Shown in pieces: positions 20,231 to 29,450 of a DNA stretch of 64,000 nt. The DNA is from Solidesulfovibrio sp. (GTDB taxonomy: Bacteria > Desulfobacterota > Desulfovibrionia > Desulfovibrionales > Desulfovibrionaceae). Within the stretch, counting starts at the first letter, position 1; each line of letters starts with the position of its first letter. The notes below the pieces were generated by a model, which worked only from the letters and a program-made list of their open reading frames with translations, did no database searches and had not been told where the DNA came from. The DNA lies in NCBI RefSeq assembly GCF_038562415.1, contig NZ_JBCFBA010000016.1:1-64000 (forward strand). Direction: 5' to 3'. The translations under genes were made by a program, and so were the position numbers.

Positions 20231-21421
20231 CTACTGCAACAAGAGCGTTGTCCCCGGGACAAAGGTCGGAGTATCGGACCAGGAAACCGGTTGCGGTTGG
20301 TACTGGTCATCGGTGTTTCCCAGGCCCAATTGCCCCTTGGTATTCTTGCCCCAGGCCCAAAGCGTCCTGTCGGTCTTCAGTCCCAGGCTGTGCATGTTGC
20401 CTGCGGCCACGGCCGCGTAGCCGCTGCCAACCGGGGTGGGTGTGGAACGATGGACTGCATCTCCAAGGCCCAACTGCCCGTAATAGTTGTAGCCCCAGGC
20501 CCAAAGGGATCCGTCGGCCGCAAGGGCCAGGCTATGCGAGCCGGCGGCCACGGCCACATAGCCGATCCCTTGGGCCGCTTGCGGCACCTGGGCGGGGGTG
20601 GGATGGGCGTCAAAATCGGCTGTGCCGAGCCCCAACTGCCCTTTGTTGTTGAGTCCCCAGGCCCAAAGCGAGCCATCGGCCTTGAGGGCCAGGCTATGGG
20701 AACCGGCGGCCAGGGCCGTGTAGCCCGTGCCCACCTGGGCCGGGGTGGGATGGGGCTGGCGGTCGGCGCTCCCCAGACCCAGTTGGCCGAAGTTGTTGAG
20801 CCCGAAGGCCCAGAGCGAGCCGTCGGCCTTGAGGGCCAGGCTGTGGGCATAACCGGCGGCCAGGGCCACGTAGCCGGTCCCCACCAGGGCCGGGACCGGG
20901 TGGGCCTGGTGGTCGGCGGTCCCCAGACCCAGTTGGCCGTAGGAATTGTCGCCCCAGGCCCAAAGCGAGCCGTCGGCCTTGAGGGCCAGGCTGTGTTGCT
21001 GTCCGGCGGACACGGCCACGTAGGTATCGCTCCCCACTTGGGTCGGGGTGAAATGCGCACTGTACGTGTGATGGGCAGTGTAATCGGCCGTACCGAGCCC
21101 CAGTTGCCCGGCCACGTTGCCGCCAAAGCTCCAGAGCGAGCCATCGGCCTTGAGGGCCAGGCTGTGGATATAGCCGGCGGCCATGGCCCGGTACCCGGAG
21201 CCGAGCCTGGTGGGTGTGGAGGTCTGCGCCGGGTCCTCCCCCAGGCCGAGTTGGCCTTTGCCGTTGTCGCCCCAGGCCCACAGGGAAGCGTCCGCCTTGA
21301 GGGCCAGGGTCTGTTTCCCGCCGCCGGACAGGATGGGCATTGTCGTCGCGCCCGCTGCCGCGTGCAGGCTCAGGGCCATGCACAGGAGCATGGCGGCCAG
21401 AGCCGGGTGTCGCGATTTCAT
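20231..21421 (-). CDS. Secreted RCC1-repeat (beta-propeller) protein
   Basis: 396 residues if it starts at the ATG at 21421 (MKSRHPALAAMLLCMALSLH), which has GGAGGA just upstream; the ATG 15 bases earlier overlaps that ribosome site. After a signal peptide come about seven repeats of roughly 50 residues, each with HSLALKADGSLWAWG and a YGQLGLG or FGQLGLG strand. This is the RCC1/ATS1 seven-blade propeller. In bacteria such proteins are extracytoplasmic scaffolds or binding proteins of mostly unknown role. Each repeat unit is strongly conserved at DNA level, so copy number could vary between strains. Confidence 0.88.
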   Translation of the reverse strand: MKSRHPALAAMLLCMALSLHAAAGATTMPILSGGGKQTLALKADASLWAWGDNGKGQLGLGEDPAQTSTPTRLGSGYRAMAAGYIHSLALKADGSLWSFGGNVAGQLGLGTADYTAHHTYSAHFTPTQVGSDTYVAVSAGQQHSLALKADGSLWAWGDNSYGQLGLGTADHQAHPVPALVGTGYVALAAGYAHSLALKADGSLWAFGLNNFGQLGLGSADRQPHPTPAQVGTGYTALAAGSHSLALKADGSLWAWGLNNKGQLGLGTADFDAHPTPAQVPQAAQGIGYVAVAAGSHSLALAADGSLWAWGYNYYGQLGLGDAVHRSTPTPVGSGYAAVAAGNMHSLGLKTDRTLWAWGKNTKGQLGLGNTDDQYQPQPVSWSDTPTFVPGTTLLLQ

Positions 21422-21480
21422 GTGTTTTTCCTCCAAGGATCGGGTGGCGGAGAGGGCTGTTTGCGGTCAGGCGCAACCCG

Positions 21481-22491
21481 CTACTGGCAAGGTTGACCGA
21501 CGATCCGATGGGCATGGGAAAACCGTTGATAATAAAACTCGTCCTTGCGAAAGGGCCTGATCTGGATGCCCGGAGGGATGGTCACCCCGTTGGCGTCCTT
21601 GATCGCCGGGGAGTTGTCGTGGCTGTCGATGACCAGCGGTTGCTGCTCTATGGGATCGGAGCCGACGGAGCCTACCCACATGATGACATGGTCAACTTTG
21701 TCTTCATTTTCCCTCATGATATACAACAAATCCCCGGTTTGCAGTTCTTTCACCAAGGTTTCATAGCTGTCGCCCGCCCCGATGACCAAGGGCGTGATGT
21801 TCCCCCGGGTGTTGTCGTCGCGCTGACAGCCGATGGGGGTGTCGGCCTCGGCCTGCTTGCTGACGCAGAAATAATGACGATGAATGCCAAGTCCGAAATT
21901 GTATATCCAGGTCGAGGTGGTTGAGCAACTCATGCCGGCGGTTTGATAATAGATCTTGACCTCAGGGCAACTGCTTGGCCAATCGGGGATGATGGGTAAT
22001 GGATCGAAATCAGGGATATAATGGTGCTGGTATTGGTAGCCGAGGTATCTTTGCGCGGTGGCGATGAGCCGTTCCCGCTTCCAGGTGTTTGCATCGCAGG
22101 CCCCGGCCGGGGCATCAACCCTTGGGTACAATCTTGCTTTCGGTCCATAGGATCTTTTGTCGGTGCAAGATGATCCCCAACACTCGGGAGGCGACCCGTC
22201 GTAGTAGGCGTTGCTTTTGTCGTACCAGTCCGAATATGGAATGACGTCTTTGGATTCATCGTTTGGATCCACTTCCGATTCCTTGCCAATGTCGTTGCGG
22301 GGAGACGCATCGAAGCCGATGGTGAGATTGTCGCAAGTGAAATTAAAGCTGTACGGCGAAGTATATCCGAAAGCGGCCGTATTGGCCCCTTGCGCCAGCG
22401 CCTGGGTCTTGTCAGTCACCAGGAGGAGGGCGACAAACGCGAGGATAAACAGGGATGCCAGAACTGGAGAGGGGTAGCCGCGGTGGGTCAT
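21481..22491 (-). CDS. Secreted NlpC/P60-like cysteine peptidase (putative)
   Basis: 336 residues with an N-terminal signal peptide (hydrophobic 9-26, then TQALAQ). The C-terminal half has the order of an NlpC/P60 fold: RYLGYQYQHHY, then Cys189 in GMSCSTTSTW, LQTGDLLYIM, His268 in KVDHVIMWVG, and a polar residue in VIDSHDN (about 289-292). NlpC/P60 enzymes cut peptidoglycan stem peptides or related amide bonds. The N-terminal half (about 35-140) is Asp/Ser/Tyr rich with paired Cys and I do not recognise it. The gene is lower in GC than its neighbours. It lies 60 bases upstream of the RCC1 gene on the same strand. Confidence 0.7.
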   Translation of the reverse strand: MTHRGYPSPVLASLFILAFVALLLVTDKTQALAQGANTAAFGYTSPYSFNFTCDNLTIGFDASPRNDIGKESEVDPNDESKDVIPYSDWYDKSNAYYDGSPPECWGSSCTDKRSYGPKARLYPRVDAPAGACDANTWKRERLIATAQRYLGYQYQHHYIPDFDPLPIIPDWPSSCPEVKIYYQTAGMSCSTTSTWIYNFGLGIHRHYFCVSKQAEADTPIGCQRDDNTRGNITPLVIGAGDSYETLVKELQTGDLLYIMRENEDKVDHVIMWVGSVGSDPIEQQPLVIDSHDNSPAIKDANGVTIPPGIQIRPFRKDEFYYQRFSHAHRIVGQPCQ

Positions 22492-23118: not shown

Positions 23119-23739
23119 ATGAGCAGCCGAATCCCGAAATCGCTTGCCCTGTCTATTCTGTGTGGATGCCTCCTTTTTTCTCAATGGGCGTATGCGCAGG
23201 CCCCTGCGGAGCAGGCAGCCGCGCCGGCCGCCCCGCTCGCCGAGCAGAAAATGGGGCTGCCCGCGCCAATGGATAAGGATCTCGCCTTTCTCCTGGGAAA
23301 ATGGGAGACCAAGCTGAAGATTTTGCCCAATCCTCTTTCCGGCAATACCGAAGAGATAAAAGGGGGCGGCACGGCGGAATATCAATTTTTCGGAAAGGTC
23401 ATCCAAGGCACGCTCGCCAACGAAACCAGTAATGGCAAATACGAATTCAAAGAATTTCTCTGGTACGACGAGAGCAACAACATATACAACATATTTTCCA
23501 TCAGCAGCGAAGGCTATGCCATCAACAAGACGCTGACCCCGACGAAATCCAGCGAAAAGTTTGTCGTTCATTACTCCGGCACGCACAAAACCAATGCCGG
23601 CAAGGAAATCAAATTCACCGTCCAGGCAAAATACAAGATAATTTCCGACACCGAAGTCAAATACTCTTCGGACGTCAAGATCGGAAACGCCGATTTCGTT
23701 CCGTTCATACAACTCAAGATGCAGCGCGTGTCCCAGTAA
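23119..23739 (+). CDS. Secreted DUF1579-like beta-barrel protein
   Basis: 206 residues from the ATG at 23119, preceded by AAAGGAG. A signal peptide (MSSRIPKSLALSILCGCLLF, cleavage near YAQA) is followed by an Ala/Pro linker. The domain then starts LAFLLGKWETKLKILPNP and carries alternating strands ending FIQLKMQRVSQ. The LxGxW start is typical of DUF1579-type lipocalin-like barrels. Function unknown; a small-ligand binder is possible. It ends 18 bases before the putative peptide precursor and is on the same strand, so it may belong to that operon. Confidence 0.6.
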   Translation: MSSRIPKSLALSILCGCLLFSQWAYAQAPAEQAAAPAAPLAEQKMGLPAPMDKDLAFLLGKWETKLKILPNPLSGNTEEIKGGGTAEYQFFGKVIQGTLANETSNGKYEFKEFLWYDESNNIYNIFSISSEGYAINKTLTPTKSSEKFVVHYSGTHKTNAGKEIKFTVQAKYKIISDTEVKYSSDVKIGNADFVPFIQLKMQRVSQ

Positions 23740-23757: not shown

Positions 23758-23952
23758 ATGCAAAAAAAAGATATTCGTGATGCCGTGGAAAATCCTGTCC
23801 TGCGCGAAGCCCTTGACCGGATAGAAAAAGAGCGGGAGGGGCGCTGTGCCTTCCCCTTCTGGGGCAACTGGGGGAACTGGAGGAACTGGAGCAACTGGGG
23901 AAACTGGAGGAACTGGCGGAACTGGCATAACGGTTGGCACAACGGCTGGTAG
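23758..23952 (+). CDS. Putative RiPP precursor with nine Trp-x-Asn motifs
   Basis: 64 residues from the ATG at 23758, which has AAGGA seven bases upstream; the ATG at 23752 is too close to that site. Residues 1-29 form a charged, helical leader (DIRDAVENPVLREALDRIEK). From residue 35 the peptide is WGNWGNWRNWSNWGNWRN and so on, giving W-x-N at 35, 38, 41, 44, 47, 50, 53, 56 and 60, and ending at Trp64. Aromatic-x-Asn is the substrate pattern of radical SAM enzymes that make three-residue cyclophanes (triceptides). Two radical SAM/SPASM genes and an ABC exporter follow directly. The core is a 9-base DNA tandem repeat. Confidence 0.75.
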   Translation: MQKKDIRDAVENPVLREALDRIEKEREGRCAFPFWGNWGNWRNWSNWGNWRNWRNWHNGWHNGW

Positions 23953-24108
23953 CGGGAGCGTGCGGAAACCCTGCCAGGGCTCTGGCGGTTTCCGTTGCAC
24001 CGTCCAGGAGCAGGCGTTGGCCGACGGCTGCCAGCGGCCGGCCAGGTCGCCGCTTGCCCTCGCCAAACGGCCCGCTTCTGGTCGGCCGCCCCTGGAGAAT
24101 CCTGCGTC

Positions 24109-25362
24109 ATGTCGCTGTATCGTATGGCTGAATCGGTCTTTTTCCCCGTCATCCCGCAAATACAGGTTACCCTCAACTGTAACTTCCGCTGCACGTATTG
24201 CTTCCAGGATCACCGCGCAAGCGAGGTCATGGAACCCGCCACGGCGGAGGCGATCCTTGTCAAATGCGCCGAATACAACCGGGGCTGGATGCGCGGCGGC
24301 GCCCGGGGCGTTGTCGACGTGTTCTGGCATGGCGGCGAACCGCTCCTGGCCGGCCTGGATTTCTACCGCGAGATGCTGCGGATTCAGGCGAAGATGCCGG
24401 ACGTCACCTTCAAAAACCACCTCCAGACGAACGGGGCGCTGTTAAACGACGCCCTTGCGCGTTTTTTCGTCGAAAACGGCTTCCAGCTCGGCTTCAGCCT
24501 GGATGGGCCGCCGGAAATCAACGACCGCAGCCGCCGCACGGCAACCGGCCAACAGTCCGCCCACGAGGCCGCCATGCGCGGCATTGCCGCCTTTCGCCGC
24601 TTCTCGCCGCCGGGCGGCCGCGTGCCCATCATCGCCGTGGTGACGCGCGAGACCATGGCCCAGGCGGAAGCCTTCTACGCCTTTTTCAAGGAGATGGGCG
24701 CCGAGGTGCAACTGGACATCTACGACCTGCGCTGCGACGACCTGCGCCCCGCCTCCCCGGATGGCCTGTTCCGCCAGGCTCCGGCCGCGGCGCAGATCGA
24801 GCGGTTCCTGATACGGCTCTTCGACCTCTGGTTTTACGACCCGTAGCGCAGGGTCGATTTCAAGGAACTGCGCGACGACCTCGATCTCGTCCTGCGTGAC
24901 GAAGCGATCCTGGCCACCCCCCTGCACAAGAAGCGCTGCAACCCCGGGAGAACGATCTTCAACCCCCGGGGCCTCGTTTTCCCCTGCGACCAGTATGTCG
25001 GCGACGCGGCCACGGCCATCGGCGATATCCGCCGCGACGCGCTCGCGACGATCATGCGCCGCAAGGCGGCCTTGTGGGACGCGATCAAGATCGGCGTTCG
25101 CAAATCCGCCGAGGCCATGGCCTGTTCCACGTGCGACTGGGGGCTGTCCTGCATGGGCGGCTGCCTGACCTGCATGAAATACAACGCCATGCTGCTGGCG
25201 GCCCGGGCCAGGGGCCTGCCCGACGATCGCTGGCGGGACATGCCGGTGCCGGCGTCCCTTGGGGACCTGGCCGGCGAGACCTACTATTGCGAGGCGCTGC
25301 GCGGCTTGCGGCGGCATATAAAGGCTGCCGTGCGGCGGGAGCTGGACAAGGCGCATGGCTAG
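24109..25362 (+). pseudogene. Radical SAM/SPASM peptide-modifying enzyme 1, split by an in-frame TAG
   Basis: From the ATG at 24109 the frame encodes a radical SAM domain with C24-x3-C28-x2-C31 (CNFRCTYC), the WHGGEPLL motif and an LQTNGALL strand. It then meets TAG at 24844-24846 (codon 246). The same frame continues without any shift to 25362 and encodes RRVDFKELRDDL, then a Cys-rich SPASM domain: CNPGR, FPCDQY, CSTCDWGLSCMGGCLTC and YYC. With the TAG read through, the protein would have 417 residues, a normal length. TAG is one base from CAG, GAG or AAG. Options are a nonsense mutation, a sequencing error, natural readthrough, or two separate polypeptides. It overlaps enzyme 2 by 8 bases. 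Confidence 0.75.
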
Positions 25363-26419
25363 CCGGGCCTTCACCGTCACCCTGGAGCCGGTGGCGGCCT
25401 GCAACCTCGCCTGCGCCTACTGCTATGCGGTAAAAGGGACCGCCGCCCAGCCGGATGCGGGCCTTTTCCTGCGCAGCCTCGCCCGGATCGGCCGCTACGC
25501 CGCGGACCAGGGCTTTGACGAGGTCCACTGCGTCTGGCTGGGGGGGGAGCCGCTGCTGGCCGGGCATGCCTTCTTCGAAGGCGTGGCGGACTGGACGGCC
25601 GCGGCCCCCGCGGGGATCAGGGTCCGGCATTTCCTGCAGACCAACGGCCTGTTGCTGGATGACGCCTATTGCCGCCTGTTCAAGGCCGCGGACGTCCAAC
25701 TGGGCCTGAGCCTGGACGGCCCCCAAGCCGTCCATGACGCCTTGCGGCGCACCAGCCAGGGAGGGCCGACCTTCCCCCGGGTCATGGCGGCCGCCGAGCT
25801 GCTGCGGCGGCACGCAGTCCCCTTCGGCTGCGCCGCGGTGGTCACCCGGATGACGCTCGGCCGGGAGCAGGAAATCTACGATTTTTTCTGCGGCCTGGGC
25901 TGCGGCTTCCGGATCAACCCCGTCATCCCCGGCCCGGGGGCCGCGCGGCGGAACGTCCTGATCGAACCCGAGGAATACGGCCGTTGCCTCGTCCGCTTCT
26001 TTGACGCCTGGAGCGACCCGCGAGGGGACCGGGTGCCTGTCTCCCCCCTGGACAACTACGTGGTGGCGCTTTTGGGCGGCGAACTTCGGGAATGCCAGCA
26101 ACAGCCTTCGTGCGCCCGCCAGGGCCTGGGGCTCAAACCCAACGGCGATGTGGTGCGTTGCGGCCGTTTCCAGGACAGGATCCTGGGCAATCTCGAGGAA
26201 GCCGACCTGGACGCGCTCCTGGCGGGCCGGGAGCCCGACCCGTTCGAGGCTCGGGTTGCCGCGCTCACGGGCTGTCATGGCTGTTCCTATTGGCGGCAAT
26301 GCCATGGGGGCTGCCCGCATAACGCGGTCGCCTTCGGGCGCGACCTTCAGGCCAGGGATCCTTTCTGTGCCGCATTCAAGATGATTTTTTCCCACATCGC
26401 GCGTGCCTTGTCCCTATGA
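25355..26419 (+). CDS. Radical SAM/SPASM peptide-modifying enzyme 2
   Basis: 354 residues. The radical SAM motif is C16-x3-C20-x2-C23 (CNLACAYCY), followed by WLGGEPLLAG, HFLQTNGLLLDD and LSLDGP. The C-terminal SPASM region shows CQQQPSC, RCGRFQD, then CHGCSYWRQCHGGCPHN and a final FC, enough for two auxiliary 4Fe-4S clusters. Resemblance to FxsB- or GrrM-like maturases is by motif only. It overlaps enzyme 1 by 8 bases and the exporter by 4 (ATGA), so all are translationally coupled. It is intact, so it could modify the precursor even if enzyme 1 is dead. Confidence 0.88.
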   Translation: MASRAFTVTLEPVAACNLACAYCYAVKGTAAQPDAGLFLRSLARIGRYAADQGFDEVHCVWLGGEPLLAGHAFFEGVADWTAAAPAGIRVRHFLQTNGLLLDDAYCRLFKAADVQLGLSLDGPQAVHDALRRTSQGGPTFPRVMAAAELLRRHAVPFGCAAVVTRMTLGREQEIYDFFCGLGCGFRINPVIPGPGAARRNVLIEPEEYGRCLVRFFDAWSDPRGDRVPVSPLDNYVVALLGGELRECQQQPSCARQGLGLKPNGDVVRCGRFQDRILGNLEEADLDALLAGREPDPFEARVAALTGCHGCSYWRQCHGGCPHNAVAFGRDLQARDPFCAAFKMIFSHIARALSL

Positions 26420-28131
26420 ACACCCCCGCGCCCCACGCCCCTGTCCGGACCTGGCTTGCCCGCAACCTCAAGCGCCATGGGGGCGTGCTGTCTGTCCTGC
26501 TGCTGTTGCAGGTGTTTTGCGCGCTGCTCGTTTCCGTGCAGCCGCTGCTGTTTCAGCGCATCGTTTCCCTGGTCGTCTCCGGCGACCAGGTGTTTCCCCT
26601 CGGCAAGGGGCTGCGCTTGCTGGCCGACCTGGCCCTCGTCTACCTGGCCGGCGCGCTCTTTCAGGGCCTGGGCGGCTATGCCGCCTCGCGATTTGCCGCG
26701 AATTTTTCCCGCCAACTGCAAGTCGATTTTTTCGAAAAGATGCTCCGGTTGCCGATCCAGACCCTGCGTAGCCAATCCGCCGGCGAATTTTTCACCAAGT
26801 TCAGTTTCGACACCTCCCAGGCGGAGATGTTCCTCGTCGTTTTCCTTCCGTCGGTCACCCGGGAACTGCTCACGGTCCTGGCGGTCACGATCATCCTTCT
26901 GGCGAGCTGTCCCCTCATGCTGACGGCTACCGCCCTTGGCATCGTCGTCGTGACCAGCGCCACGACCGCGTCGCTCCATGTCGTCATGGCGCGGTTCGCC
27001 CAAACGCAGCGGACCCAGTCCGGCACGATCAACAGCCTGCTCGATGAAACGCTCCAGGGCATCGACACGCTCAAGACGCTCGCTTCGGAAGGACGGCATG
27101 GTCGCCGGTTCGAACGGCTCGCCACGCAACTGCGCGATGTTTCCGTCAAGGCCGGCTTGACCGGCGCAGGCTTTTCCTCCGTCTTGGACCTTGTCGCCAA
27201 GGGGGGGGGCATTCTCCTCATATTCCTGGCCTATCGCCTCATCGCCCGGGGAGAAATCGATTCCGAGGCCTTTCTGCTCTTTTTCTTCTACGCCAGCATC
27301 CTGCAAATGAGTGTGGCGGCCCTCGTCAATACGCTCTCGAATTTCCAGCCCCAGTTGGTCGGACTGCGCAACGTCGCGGCCTTTCTGGCCGAGCCGGTGG
27401 AGGACCGGGTGGGGCCGGTCGGCACGGAAACCCTCACCGCATCCGTGCCCATCGAGATTTCCGGGCTCACCTTCGGATATCCGGGCAAGAGGCTGCTGTT
27501 TTGCGACGCCCGGCTCCTGGCCCCGGCCAACGGCACCACCCTCATCCACGGGCCGAGTGGTGCGGGCAAATCGACCCTGATCAATCTCCTGCACGGGTTT
27601 TATGCGCCAAGCCGAGGGCGGATTTTTTTCGGCGCATTGCCCCTGGAGCGCCTGGAGCGGTCGGAGCTGCGGCGCAAGGTCGGGGTGGTGACCCAGGATC
27701 ACTTTATTTTCAGCGAATCGATCCGGGACAACATCCGCATCGGCAATCCCGATGCCGATGATGCCCGGGTCATGACCGCCGTGGCCAAGGCCCATCTCGA
27801 AGGCGTGGTGGGGCGCCTGCCGGGCGGCCTGGACTTTCGCCTGGACCCTCGGGGCAAGGGCCTGAGCGCCGGCGAGCGCCAGCGGATCGCTATCGCGCGC
27901 ATCCTGCTCACCGATGCGCCCATCATGCTGCTCGACGAACCGTGGTCGAACCTCGACATGGATGTGCGGTTCCTGCTGGCCGAGGTCATCAACGAATGCC
28001 GCACGCACAAGACGATCGTGATCATGTCCCACGAAGATATTCCCACGCTGATCGTCGATCGTGTCTATCGGCTCGATCCGGAAACAGGAACATTCGTGCC
28101 CGAGGCGCACCGCCTGGGAAGCCGGCCCTGA
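26416..28131 (+). CDS. ABC exporter (fused permease-ATPase) of the RiPP locus
   Basis: 571 residues. The N-terminal transmembrane domain (about 20-310) has six hydrophobic spans. The ATPase domain follows, with Walker A GPSGAGKST (about 379), the LSAGERQRIAIARI signature (about 484) and Walker B IMLLDEP (about 505). It is a homodimeric MsbA/LapB-type half-transporter. There is no N-terminal C39 peptidase domain, so leader removal must be done elsewhere. Coupled to enzyme 2 by ATGA, it most likely exports the modified peptide. Confidence 0.9.
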   Translation: MNTPAPHAPVRTWLARNLKRHGGVLSVLLLLQVFCALLVSVQPLLFQRIVSLVVSGDQVFPLGKGLRLLADLALVYLAGALFQGLGGYAASRFAANFSRQLQVDFFEKMLRLPIQTLRSQSAGEFFTKFSFDTSQAEMFLVVFLPSVTRELLTVLAVTIILLASCPLMLTATALGIVVVTSATTASLHVVMARFAQTQRTQSGTINSLLDETLQGIDTLKTLASEGRHGRRFERLATQLRDVSVKAGLTGAGFSSVLDLVAKGGGILLIFLAYRLIARGEIDSEAFLLFFFYASILQMSVAALVNTLSNFQPQLVGLRNVAAFLAEPVEDRVGPVGTETLTASVPIEISGLTFGYPGKRLLFCDARLLAPANGTTLIHGPSGAGKSTLINLLHGFYAPSRGRIFFGALPLERLERSELRRKVGVVTQDHFIFSESIRDNIRIGNPDADDARVMTAVAKAHLEGVVGRLPGGLDFRLDPRGKGLSAGERQRIAIARILLTDAPIMLLDEPWSNLDMDVRFLLAEVINECRTHKTIVIMSHEDIPTLIVDRVYRLDPETGTFVPEAHRLGSRP

Positions 28132-28257: not shown

Positions 28258-28860
28258 ATGAACAGCGAGAAAGGAGTGGGGAGCCGAGGCGCTGGGTTTC
28301 CGAGAATGGCCTTGATAATGACAATTGTCTGCCTGGCTGCCAGCATTACACAGGTCCGCCCCGCGGCGGGGCAAGCAAATCCGGACAAGATCAAGGTCGT
28401 CGGCTACCTGCTGGACAGCACATATTCTGAGGATCCTCAGAAGATGAAGCAGCTCCGTCGGAACCTGCGCGAGATATATTGCAAACAAAAGAATGTGGAA
28501 GGGCTGCTGCCGGTCCTGTTCTCCAGCGAAATAAATGCCTCCAAGACGGTTCAGCCCCTCCCCATCGGGGACAGCGCCGCCAAGCTGCTCTATATTTATG
28601 CCAATTCCGACAAGGATTCCCCGGAGAACAAGGTGAAAGTGATCCTGGTCATAGCATTCCCGGACGAAGTTGCCGGAACGCTGCAGTTTCACCGGGTATC
28701 CAAGCAAACCAACGTCAAGCCGTGGTCCTTCACAAAGGAAATGAAAGGGCAGCGTTGCGATATCTCCGGTCAACGCCCCGAGTCCTTTGTTCCAGGCTTT
28801 GGAACCACGTGGACCATTTTGGCCAATGACGAGGAATGGAAGTTCCAGGTGGAGCGATGA
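28258..28860 (+). CDS. Secreted protein of unknown function
   Basis: 200 residues. A hydrophobic segment after a charged N-terminus (MALIMTIVCLAASI, then VRPAAGQA) looks like a signal peptide. The rest is a mixed alpha/beta domain with no motif I recognise; Cys pairs are sparse. The stop overlaps the start of the next gene (ATGA). It follows the exporter by 126 bases on the same strand, so it may be part of the peptide locus. Confidence 0.6.
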   Translation: MNSEKGVGSRGAGFPRMALIMTIVCLAASITQVRPAAGQANPDKIKVVGYLLDSTYSEDPQKMKQLRRNLREIYCKQKNVEGLLPVLFSSEINASKTVQPLPIGDSAAKLLYIYANSDKDSPENKVKVILVIAFPDEVAGTLQFHRVSKQTNVKPWSFTKEMKGQRCDISGQRPESFVPGFGTTWTILANDEEWKFQVER

Positions 28861-29450
28861 GAATTCTCGATTATCTGGCCAAGACCGAGACCGAAACCAG
28901 GCTGGAAAAACTGGTCTACACGTTTTTTGACAAGATCATCATCGGCCTGCTCACCGCCGTCCTGCTTGTCAGCTTTCAGCAGCGCAATGCCTTTCAAGAA
29001 AAAAGGAAAGATGCCCTCCTTGCCGTCAACAAGGTAACGACGGACAACATGGTGCAAAAGCGCAATGAATTTGAAACGAGCTTTGAAAATTTCTATATCC
29101 TGTGCATGAACAACAGTTATGCCTGCCAACTTTCCTCGGAGGAACAATCGAGTGCCATGCAGTTGACGAACCGGGTCTATCTCGCACTCACAAACCTGCG
29201 GTCAACCATGCATCTGGATAACGACAATGACTATACATCCGCCCAGAAAAAGCTGGTAAGGGAGATGAATACCATAACAGCCAAACTGTCTGTGGCTTTC
29301 ACCAACAAAACAAGAGCCTATACAACGCAACAGTTGACCGACGACCTGGACAACTTGAACAAAGACTATTTGAACATGCTTCAAATATTGAAGAATGCCA
29401 TTTCCGACAAGGTCAAGCACGATTACGATCTGGTGCAGCACGAAGAATAG
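28857..29450 (+). CDS. Membrane-anchored helical protein of unknown function
   Basis: 197 residues from the ATG at 28857. One transmembrane segment lies near the N-terminus (about 27-41, IIIGLLTAVLLVSF), followed by about 150 residues that look mostly helical and coiled. Two Cys occur at about 83 and 89. No family recognised. Coupled to the gene upstream by a 4-base overlap, which suggests that the two products act together. Confidence 0.6.
   Translation: MRILDYLAKTETETRLEKLVYTFFDKIIIGLLTAVLLVSFQQRNAFQEKRKDALLAVNKVTTDNMVQKRNEFETSFENFYILCMNNSYACQLSSEEQSSAMQLTNRVYLALTNLRSTMHLDNDNDYTSAQKKLVREMNTITAKLSVAFTNKTRAYTTQQLTDDLDNLNKDYLNMLQILKNAISDKVKHDYDLVQHEE

Follow-up and report, generated by a model that had tools for sequence, protein, structure and literature searches.

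The window analysed here is a stretch of 64,000 nucleotides from Solidesulfovibrio sp. (contig NZ_JBCFBA010000016.1, positions 1 to 64,000), and its forward strand contains a four-gene candidate cassette for a ribosomally synthesised and post-translationally modified peptide (RiPP). The first gene encodes a 64-residue precursor (23758–23952) whose core repeats the unit Trp-x-Asn (W-x-N), and it is followed after a gap of 156 bases by the frames of two radical S-adenosylmethionine (SAM)/SPASM maturases, rSAM1 (24109–25362) and rSAM2 (25355–26419; 354 residues, intact), and by an ATP-binding cassette (ABC) exporter of 571 residues (26416–28131) with its membrane and ATPase domains fused. The sequence-only reading of this locus described gene overlaps of 4–8 bases and an exporter lacking a peptidase, and both descriptions hold: rSAM1 and rSAM2 overlap by 8 bases (the last base of rSAM1 is 25362, the first of rSAM2 25355), rSAM2 and the exporter gene by 4 bases (rSAM2 ends at 26419 and the exporter gene starts at 26416), and in the exporter Pfam matches ABC_membrane and ABC_tran and no peptidase domain. 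Both radical SAM/SPASM frames that it reported are also present, but rSAM1 is not open, and its in-frame TAG at 24844–24846 had been missed. In rSAM2 the Pfam Radical_SAM domain scores above cut-off and SPASM slightly below it (20.1 versus 21.5).

The precursor and the distribution of the cassette

The precursor begins with an ATG at 23758, has AAGG 8 bases 5' of this start, and ends at a TAG stop. The leader MQKKDIRDAVENPVLREALDRIEKEREGRCAFPF precedes the W-x-N core WGNWGNWRNWSNWGNWRNWRNWHNGWHNGW (repeats at 23860–23949), in which x is G, R, S or H, and the peptide ends in Gly-Trp. Nine contiguous units had been claimed; the number and the middle residues are right, but only eight are contiguous and the ninth follows one inserted Gly. 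By eye the peptide appears to have no evident signal peptide.

Leader and core are both conserved in the precursors of five other genomes, all from the window's phylum. Positions V14, L15, E17, L19, I22, E25, R29, F32 and P33 are identical in all six aligned precursors, R29 is followed by F-P-[FY]-W-G-N-W, and the first W-G-N-W is identical in all six. There are 49 W-x-N units in total (nine in the window, nine in L280, seven in L035, and eight each in L293, L294 and L295), the spacing of three holds throughout the six cores with the inserted Gly in the window as the sole exception, and the middle residue is R in 17 units, G in 14, H in eight, F in four, W in three, S in two and L in one. The window precursor ends G-W-H-N-G-W and the five homologues end W-W-T. 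The 64-residue frame is a real gene, as first read, and its pattern is more than chance, since this genome is the only one among 14 in the genus to have it, and leader and register recur in five genomes beyond it.

A codon-pattern scan for W-x-N-W-x-N-W-x-N-W across genome contigs of 84,980 species gave at least 117 stretches, eight of which have a tblastn match to the window enzymes within the locus, while the enzymes of a ninth (L102) lie just past the locus edge; among these nine, L035 (Syntrophobacterales) and L102/L280 (Deltaproteobacteria) are closely related to the cassette in the window. For the remaining 108 of the at least 117 stretches, which were not classified one by one, no adjacent radical SAM gene was shown. 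A search with rSAM1 of L280 (E ≤ 1e-45) matched 5 of 395 genomes in a sample of the window's phylum, namely the window's own genome and four genomes from a second family (f12), and in the order of G344 it matched 5 of 29 genomes, which are 5 of the 22 in f12. Taking G060 to be the L280 genome G344, and G462 to be G059, from their shared contig numbers and coordinates, there are six distinct carriers: the window, L280 (G344), L035 with L281 (G059), L293 (G384), L294 (G420) and L295 (G257).

The gene order precursor, rSAM1, rSAM2, exporter is common to all six carriers, the L035/L281 cassette being split over two contigs and the L293 exporter cut at the locus edge. A genome search for further (W-x-N)n precursors near enzyme pairs was proposed from the first inspection; the pattern scan and the rSAM1 searches have together yielded these five other cassettes, in which the precursor frame, its stop and the W-x-N spacing are kept. 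Identities to the five homologues are 49.6–52.0% for rSAM1 (all five intact), 43.2–48.3% for rSAM2 and 44.0–49.8% for the exporter (one homologue being the cut copy). Within the 395 genomes the repeat pattern occurs in eight and a backward-read control in two, and all five rSAM1 carriers lie within those eight (Fisher p 7e-10, a value inflated by relatedness). The other three repeat genomes (G233, G285 and G367) have single matches that look incidental, with no CxxxCxxC frame of more than 200 residues in loci of 1.8–3.0 kb. Conservation in six genomes and the co-occurrence of repeat and enzyme provide good support for the earlier identification of a radical SAM RiPP cassette of the Trp-x-Asn type.

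Neither rSAM1 nor the repeat occurs in any of 16 other genomes of the same family in the phylum sample, and in 58 other relatives the matches to rSAM2 do not exceed 37% identity (34% at full length). Viral contigs gave at least 120 stretches with three W-x-N units in a row, 0 of 120 having a tblastn match to either enzyme, and plasmids gave 255 records with rSAM2-like proteins, none reaching 60% identity, with a sulfatase maturase annotation for 12 of the 15 listed. In the phylum of an Alphaproteobacterium none of 398 genomes matches L280 rSAM1 at E ≤ 1e-40, in a search without a positive control.

The radical SAM/SPASM enzymes and the premature stop in rSAM1

Comparison with NCBIfam profiles, considered here for the best 25 of 63 families, places both enzymes nearest DynA and the anaerobic sulfatase maturases (anSME), and the only model above its cut-off is the generic SPASM-domain model TIGR04085 (39.2 versus 27, in the back half of rSAM1). 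Against the DynA cut-off of 450 bits rSAM2 scores 221.2, the front half of rSAM1 130.4, and the L280 enzymes 180.8 and 238.9; with sulfatase maturase model TIGR03942 (cut-off 349.45) rSAM2 scores 218.7 and the L280 enzymes 173.4 and 222.0; and with GrrM/OscB model TIGR04261 (cut-off 310) the scores are 108.5 for the front half of rSAM1, 110.4 for rSAM2, and 110.3 and 131.4 for the L280 enzymes. rSAM2 is also below the cut-offs of XyeB (59.2 versus 450), FxsB (106.3 versus 370), YhhB (116 versus 445) and AmcB (134.4 versus 425), as are the L280 enzymes (77–133 bits), and below that of the daropeptide enzyme DarE (98.9 versus 650), the residue at i+2 in these cores being Asn and not that of a Trp-x-Trp core. 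The intact L280 enzymes give the same family picture as those of the window. Kinship with Xye/Grr/Fxs-type enzymes, as initially suggested, holds at the superfamily level, but this profile search places both enzymes far below the cut-offs of those families.

The CxxxCxxC motif and the SPASM motif CxxC-x5-C are present in both enzymes of five cassettes checked (L294: CxxxCxxC only), and in the window and L280 CxxxCxxC lies no more than about 31 residues from the N terminus, a length that would leave no room for an N-terminal recognition domain. All six rSAM1 and all 12 sulfatase-maturase-like relatives share with the sulfatase maturase 4k37 an Asp after a SPASM Cys, the general base of that enzyme. 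No rSAM2 copy has it (0 of six), the column there reading N, S, S, C, S and G, and Asp is likewise absent from six of six GrrM-type enzymes. Since the Asp is kept in rSAM1 and absent from rSAM2, the two are not redundant copies, and with this difference at a conserved position they probably have different roles or form a complex. In a tree of 30 rows, to be read with a long-branch warning, rSAM1 (6), rSAM2 (6), GrrM-type (6) and sulfatase-maturase-like (12) enzymes fall into four separate groups, every one supported at 100/99 or better, and the window enzyme branches first within both the rSAM1 and the rSAM2 group; a test of rSAM1/rSAM2 sisterhood gives p-AU 0.488.

The in-frame TAG at 24844–24846 parts the window's rSAM1 into a radical SAM half of 245 codons and a SPASM half of 171 codons. 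Identity to the five homologues is 54.1–57.6% behind the TAG and 46.0–48.7% before it, the same tilt as between intact copies (L280 versus the others, 78.2–87.1% in the back and 71.5–79.2% in the front), so the back half shows no decay, as expected of a recent stop or a sequence error; the TAG may be a recent nonsense change, a sequence error, or a site of read-through. Decoding as pyrrolysine was considered and is not supported: a PylB search of the genome gave seven matches with a best score of 129 bits against a cut-off of 348.2, the tRNA and other pyl genes not being searched, and with no PylB above cut-off the codon is taken to be read as a stop (PylB is above cut-off in one of 14 control genomes). 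The premature stop means that the pathway may be broken in this genome, and, barring a sequencing mistake at the TAG, it is probably newly inactive here.

The chances seem to us evenly divided on whether the window cassette was acquired by transfer and is now defunct or failing through the rSAM1 nonsense codon. This possibility is compatible with reading the intact cassette as a RiPP pathway, and it is favoured by the TAG itself, by the PylB result, and by the lack of rSAM1, the repeat or a close rSAM2 in the family and the 58 other relatives noted above. However, the half behind the stop is better conserved than the front, with the tilt of the intact homologues, which points to recent decay or an error in the TAG, and rSAM2, the exporter and the precursor are all intact.

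The proposed product and its relation to known systems

We think it likely that these genes constitute a RiPP cassette in which the radical SAM/SPASM pair acts on the W-x-N core, most likely by making Trp-Asn(i+2) cross-links. The leader pattern V-L-x-E-x-L-x-x-I-x-x-E is probably helical and would bring the peptide to the pair, which in different roles or as a complex would link every Trp, through a carbon of its indole, to the beta-carbon of the Asn at i+2, with one three-residue ring per unit. The mature peptide would then be a string of up to 7–9 adjacent small rings, forming a stiff aromatic rod with mostly Arg, Gly and His as middle residues; it would leave the cytoplasm through the exporter, and the leader would be removed by a protease encoded outside the cassette. 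Links from i to i+2 use each Trp and Asn once, so the rings abut with no shared residue, and the fused ladder envisaged previously is not supported. That the product is a secreted or envelope-active antagonist is a weak guess.

It is also possible, though we judge it unlikely, that the pair makes another linkage on the same repeats, such as an ether or C-C bond between Trp(i) and Trp(i+3), or that it oxidises the Asn beta-carbon, epimerises residues, or modifies only some of the units. The enzymes are nearest DynA and the sulfatase maturases and not GrrM, the use of two dissimilar enzymes for one repeat suggests more than one reaction, and the darobactin enzyme forms a Trp-Trp ether, according to PMC9055067. 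PMC11002830 describes OscB as joining Trp C7 to the Cbeta of Asn or Asp at i+2, and dynobactin as linking Trp to Asn at i+3. In the six cores Asn occupies i+2 of 49 of the 54 in-register Trp, the other five having the Thr of the homologues' terminal W-W-T, and the middle residue is of seven kinds; a fixed Asn and a variable middle residue are what an OscB-type enzyme needs and what an Asn acceptor leads one to expect. Inside the contiguous tract the residue at i+3 is Trp, so that a dynobactin-type Trp(i)-Asn(i+3) link is impossible there. It is highly improbable that the W-x-N repeats are an artefact of reading a low-complexity, collagen-like Gly-x-Thr repeat in the wrong frame: the +1 frame is mostly Gly-x-Thr in all six copies, and many of the pattern matches listed from elsewhere have such a look by eye, but a leader with its start codon is conserved in the W frame, a stop directly follows the core in all six W frames, this frame shows synonymous changes at third positions (in codons for Gly, Arg, His, Phe, Thr and Asn among the six copies), and the precursor gene lies 5' of rSAM1 in all six cassettes.

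Several observations weigh against the proposed pathway. In addition to the interrupted rSAM1 of the window, both enzymes are below the cut-off of each maturase family among the profiles compared, we know of no characterised enzyme of either lineage, and the differences in the Asp column suggest that the chemistry may differ between rSAM1, rSAM2 and the GrrM-type enzymes. Neither a peptidase, a recognition-domain-sized extension nor an immunity gene is evident within the cassette, and the analysis found just six copies, five of them from one family.

The cassette shows two features of the triceptides, the class with C-C bonds from an aromatic ring to the Cbeta of residue i+2: an aromatic-x-Asn (i, i+2) core, of nine units in the window and 7–9 in the five homologues, and a radical SAM/SPASM enzyme adjoining the precursor in all six cassettes (interrupted in the window's). 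In these respects it resembles the GrrM/OscB triceptides, although those have one enzyme where the window cassette has two, and this cassette adds an ABC exporter to the operon and a precursor that by eye seems to lack a signal peptide. The GrrA/OscA1 precursor model TIGR04260 (cut-off 31 bits) does not match the window precursor at E ≤ 1, a weak test in that only one of seven ladder precursors (L062, 20.5 bits) matched at all. The product had been expected to be denser than the few-ring examples known; dense ladders are not unique to this cassette, as contiguous W-x-N ladders also adjoin single GrrM/OscB enzymes in L088, L048, L057 and L045 (four of four scanned, 363–451 bits versus 310), and the enzymes of L042 and L058, placed by the tree, group with the GrrM type. 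By eye, the ladder precursors of L042, L045, L058, L121 (Alphaproteobacteria), L057 (Roseobacter), and L048 and L088 (Bacteroidota) have hydrophobic N termini, and six of these seven loci have a neighbouring GrrM-type enzyme (four scanned and two by tree), with none matched within the L121 locus. In Leptolyngbya (L062, 1187–2638) two divergent W-x-N precursors lie on opposite strands, one of them giving the sub-threshold GrrA/OscA1 match. A precursor rich in W-x-N and W-x-D in a Nanohalarchaeota locus (L286, 2448–7057, G063:C31; also L032) adjoins Hxs-type proteins, with HxsC at 300.2 bits (above 267.9), an HxsB-like protein at 300.1 (below 370) and an HxsD-like protein at 40.1 (below 50), a combination of a Trp core and His-Xaa-Ser-type enzymes within an archaeal genome.

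DynA, called DynE in PMC11002830, is the top-scoring named family for both enzymes and makes a Trp-Asn C-C link, but the Trp-x-x-Asn register of dynobactin is absent from the contiguous tract. The thuricin CD maturases TrnC and TrnD, which were shown to act as one complex (PMC12093266), are likewise two radical SAM enzymes for RiPP precursors, although they perform thioether chemistry and serve two precursors. Kostenko et al. (PMC9062424) describe Aro-Xaa-Xaa-Asn repeats and also note Aro-Xaa-Asn motifs in other clusters. The nearest solved structure is the anSME 4k37 (E 4.5e-32 for rSAM2 and 1.3e-30 for L280 rSAM1), and the Asp kept in rSAM1 is a further likeness to this family; in contrast, no sulfatase is present in the cassette, and the genome's own maturase-like gene lies elsewhere. 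A second DNA match in the same genome (contig C8, locus L025), examined as a possible second cassette, is this sulfatase-maturase-like gene, standing before a sulfatase-like open reading frame (both named by eye).

Among the papers listed in searches of an open-licence collection, which lacks most of the triceptide literature, none describes the cassette. Repeated Trp-Asn rings are close to what is known, with OscB and the GrrM/OscB-associated ladders of other phyla as precedents. What appears to be new is the combination of two enzyme lineages that score well short of the cut-off for every maturase family among the profiles compared, a precursor with no evident signal peptide, and an ABC exporter. 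As a tentative proposal, for which we put the chances at somewhat less than even, two radical SAM lineages outside the named cyclophane families would jointly convert Trp-x-Asn triplets, 7–9 of them in a contiguous row, into three-residue cyclophanes without a gap, giving a ribosomal rigid aromatic rod, and this core grammar would be served by at least three enzyme lineages (the pair, GrrM/OscB, and the Nanohalarchaeota Hxs-type set) as a convergent design. If so, the cassette would offer a genetically encoded route to polycyclophane peptides that are stiff and dense, and would let one test how two paired enzymes handle a repeated substrate (order, processivity and division of labour). The presence of different maturase lineages beside the same type of Trp-x-Asn ladder makes convergence on the ladder as a structural solution testable.

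Flanking genes and minor features

A weak terminator-like hairpin at 23971–23988 (forward strand), between the precursor and rSAM1, is a possible attenuator. The region has nine terminator-like sites against a shuffle mean of 6.4 (sd 2.4), and 24 of 200 shuffles of the window's hairpin stretch fold equally well or better. A shared RNA hairpin 3' of the precursor was considered and is not claimed, as among the six stretches folded only L280 beat all shuffles (z -4.2), with z of -1.2 for the window and -1.5 to +0.4 for the other four.

On the reverse strand 5' of the cassette (20231–22491) there are an RCC1-like repeat protein (by eye), with no NCBIfam match at E ≤ 1e-8, and a 336-residue protein that lacks Pfam matches and whose N terminus looks by eye like a signal peptide. 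Directly 3' of the exporter (28258–29450) are two small proteins without Pfam matches, which may be partners of the cassette or unrelated to it.

A small protein is encoded on the forward strand at 23119–23739, with a start codon picked by eye and a signal-peptide-like N terminus (also by eye). Its gene ends 18 bases 5' of the precursor and probably shares a transcript with it. It has no Pfam match, its sole match is within its own genome, with none in 58 other relatives, and it is not conserved with the cassette, being 16–20% identical to the upstream proteins of L280 and L035. Small upstream proteins with a signal-peptide-like start (by eye) are nonetheless present in all five homologous cassettes (L280 708–1184, L035 1924–2433, L293 3751–4215, L294 698–1261 and L295 4874–5464); those of L280 and L035, the two scanned, have sub-threshold matches to Metal_resist and are unrelated to the protein at this position in the window.

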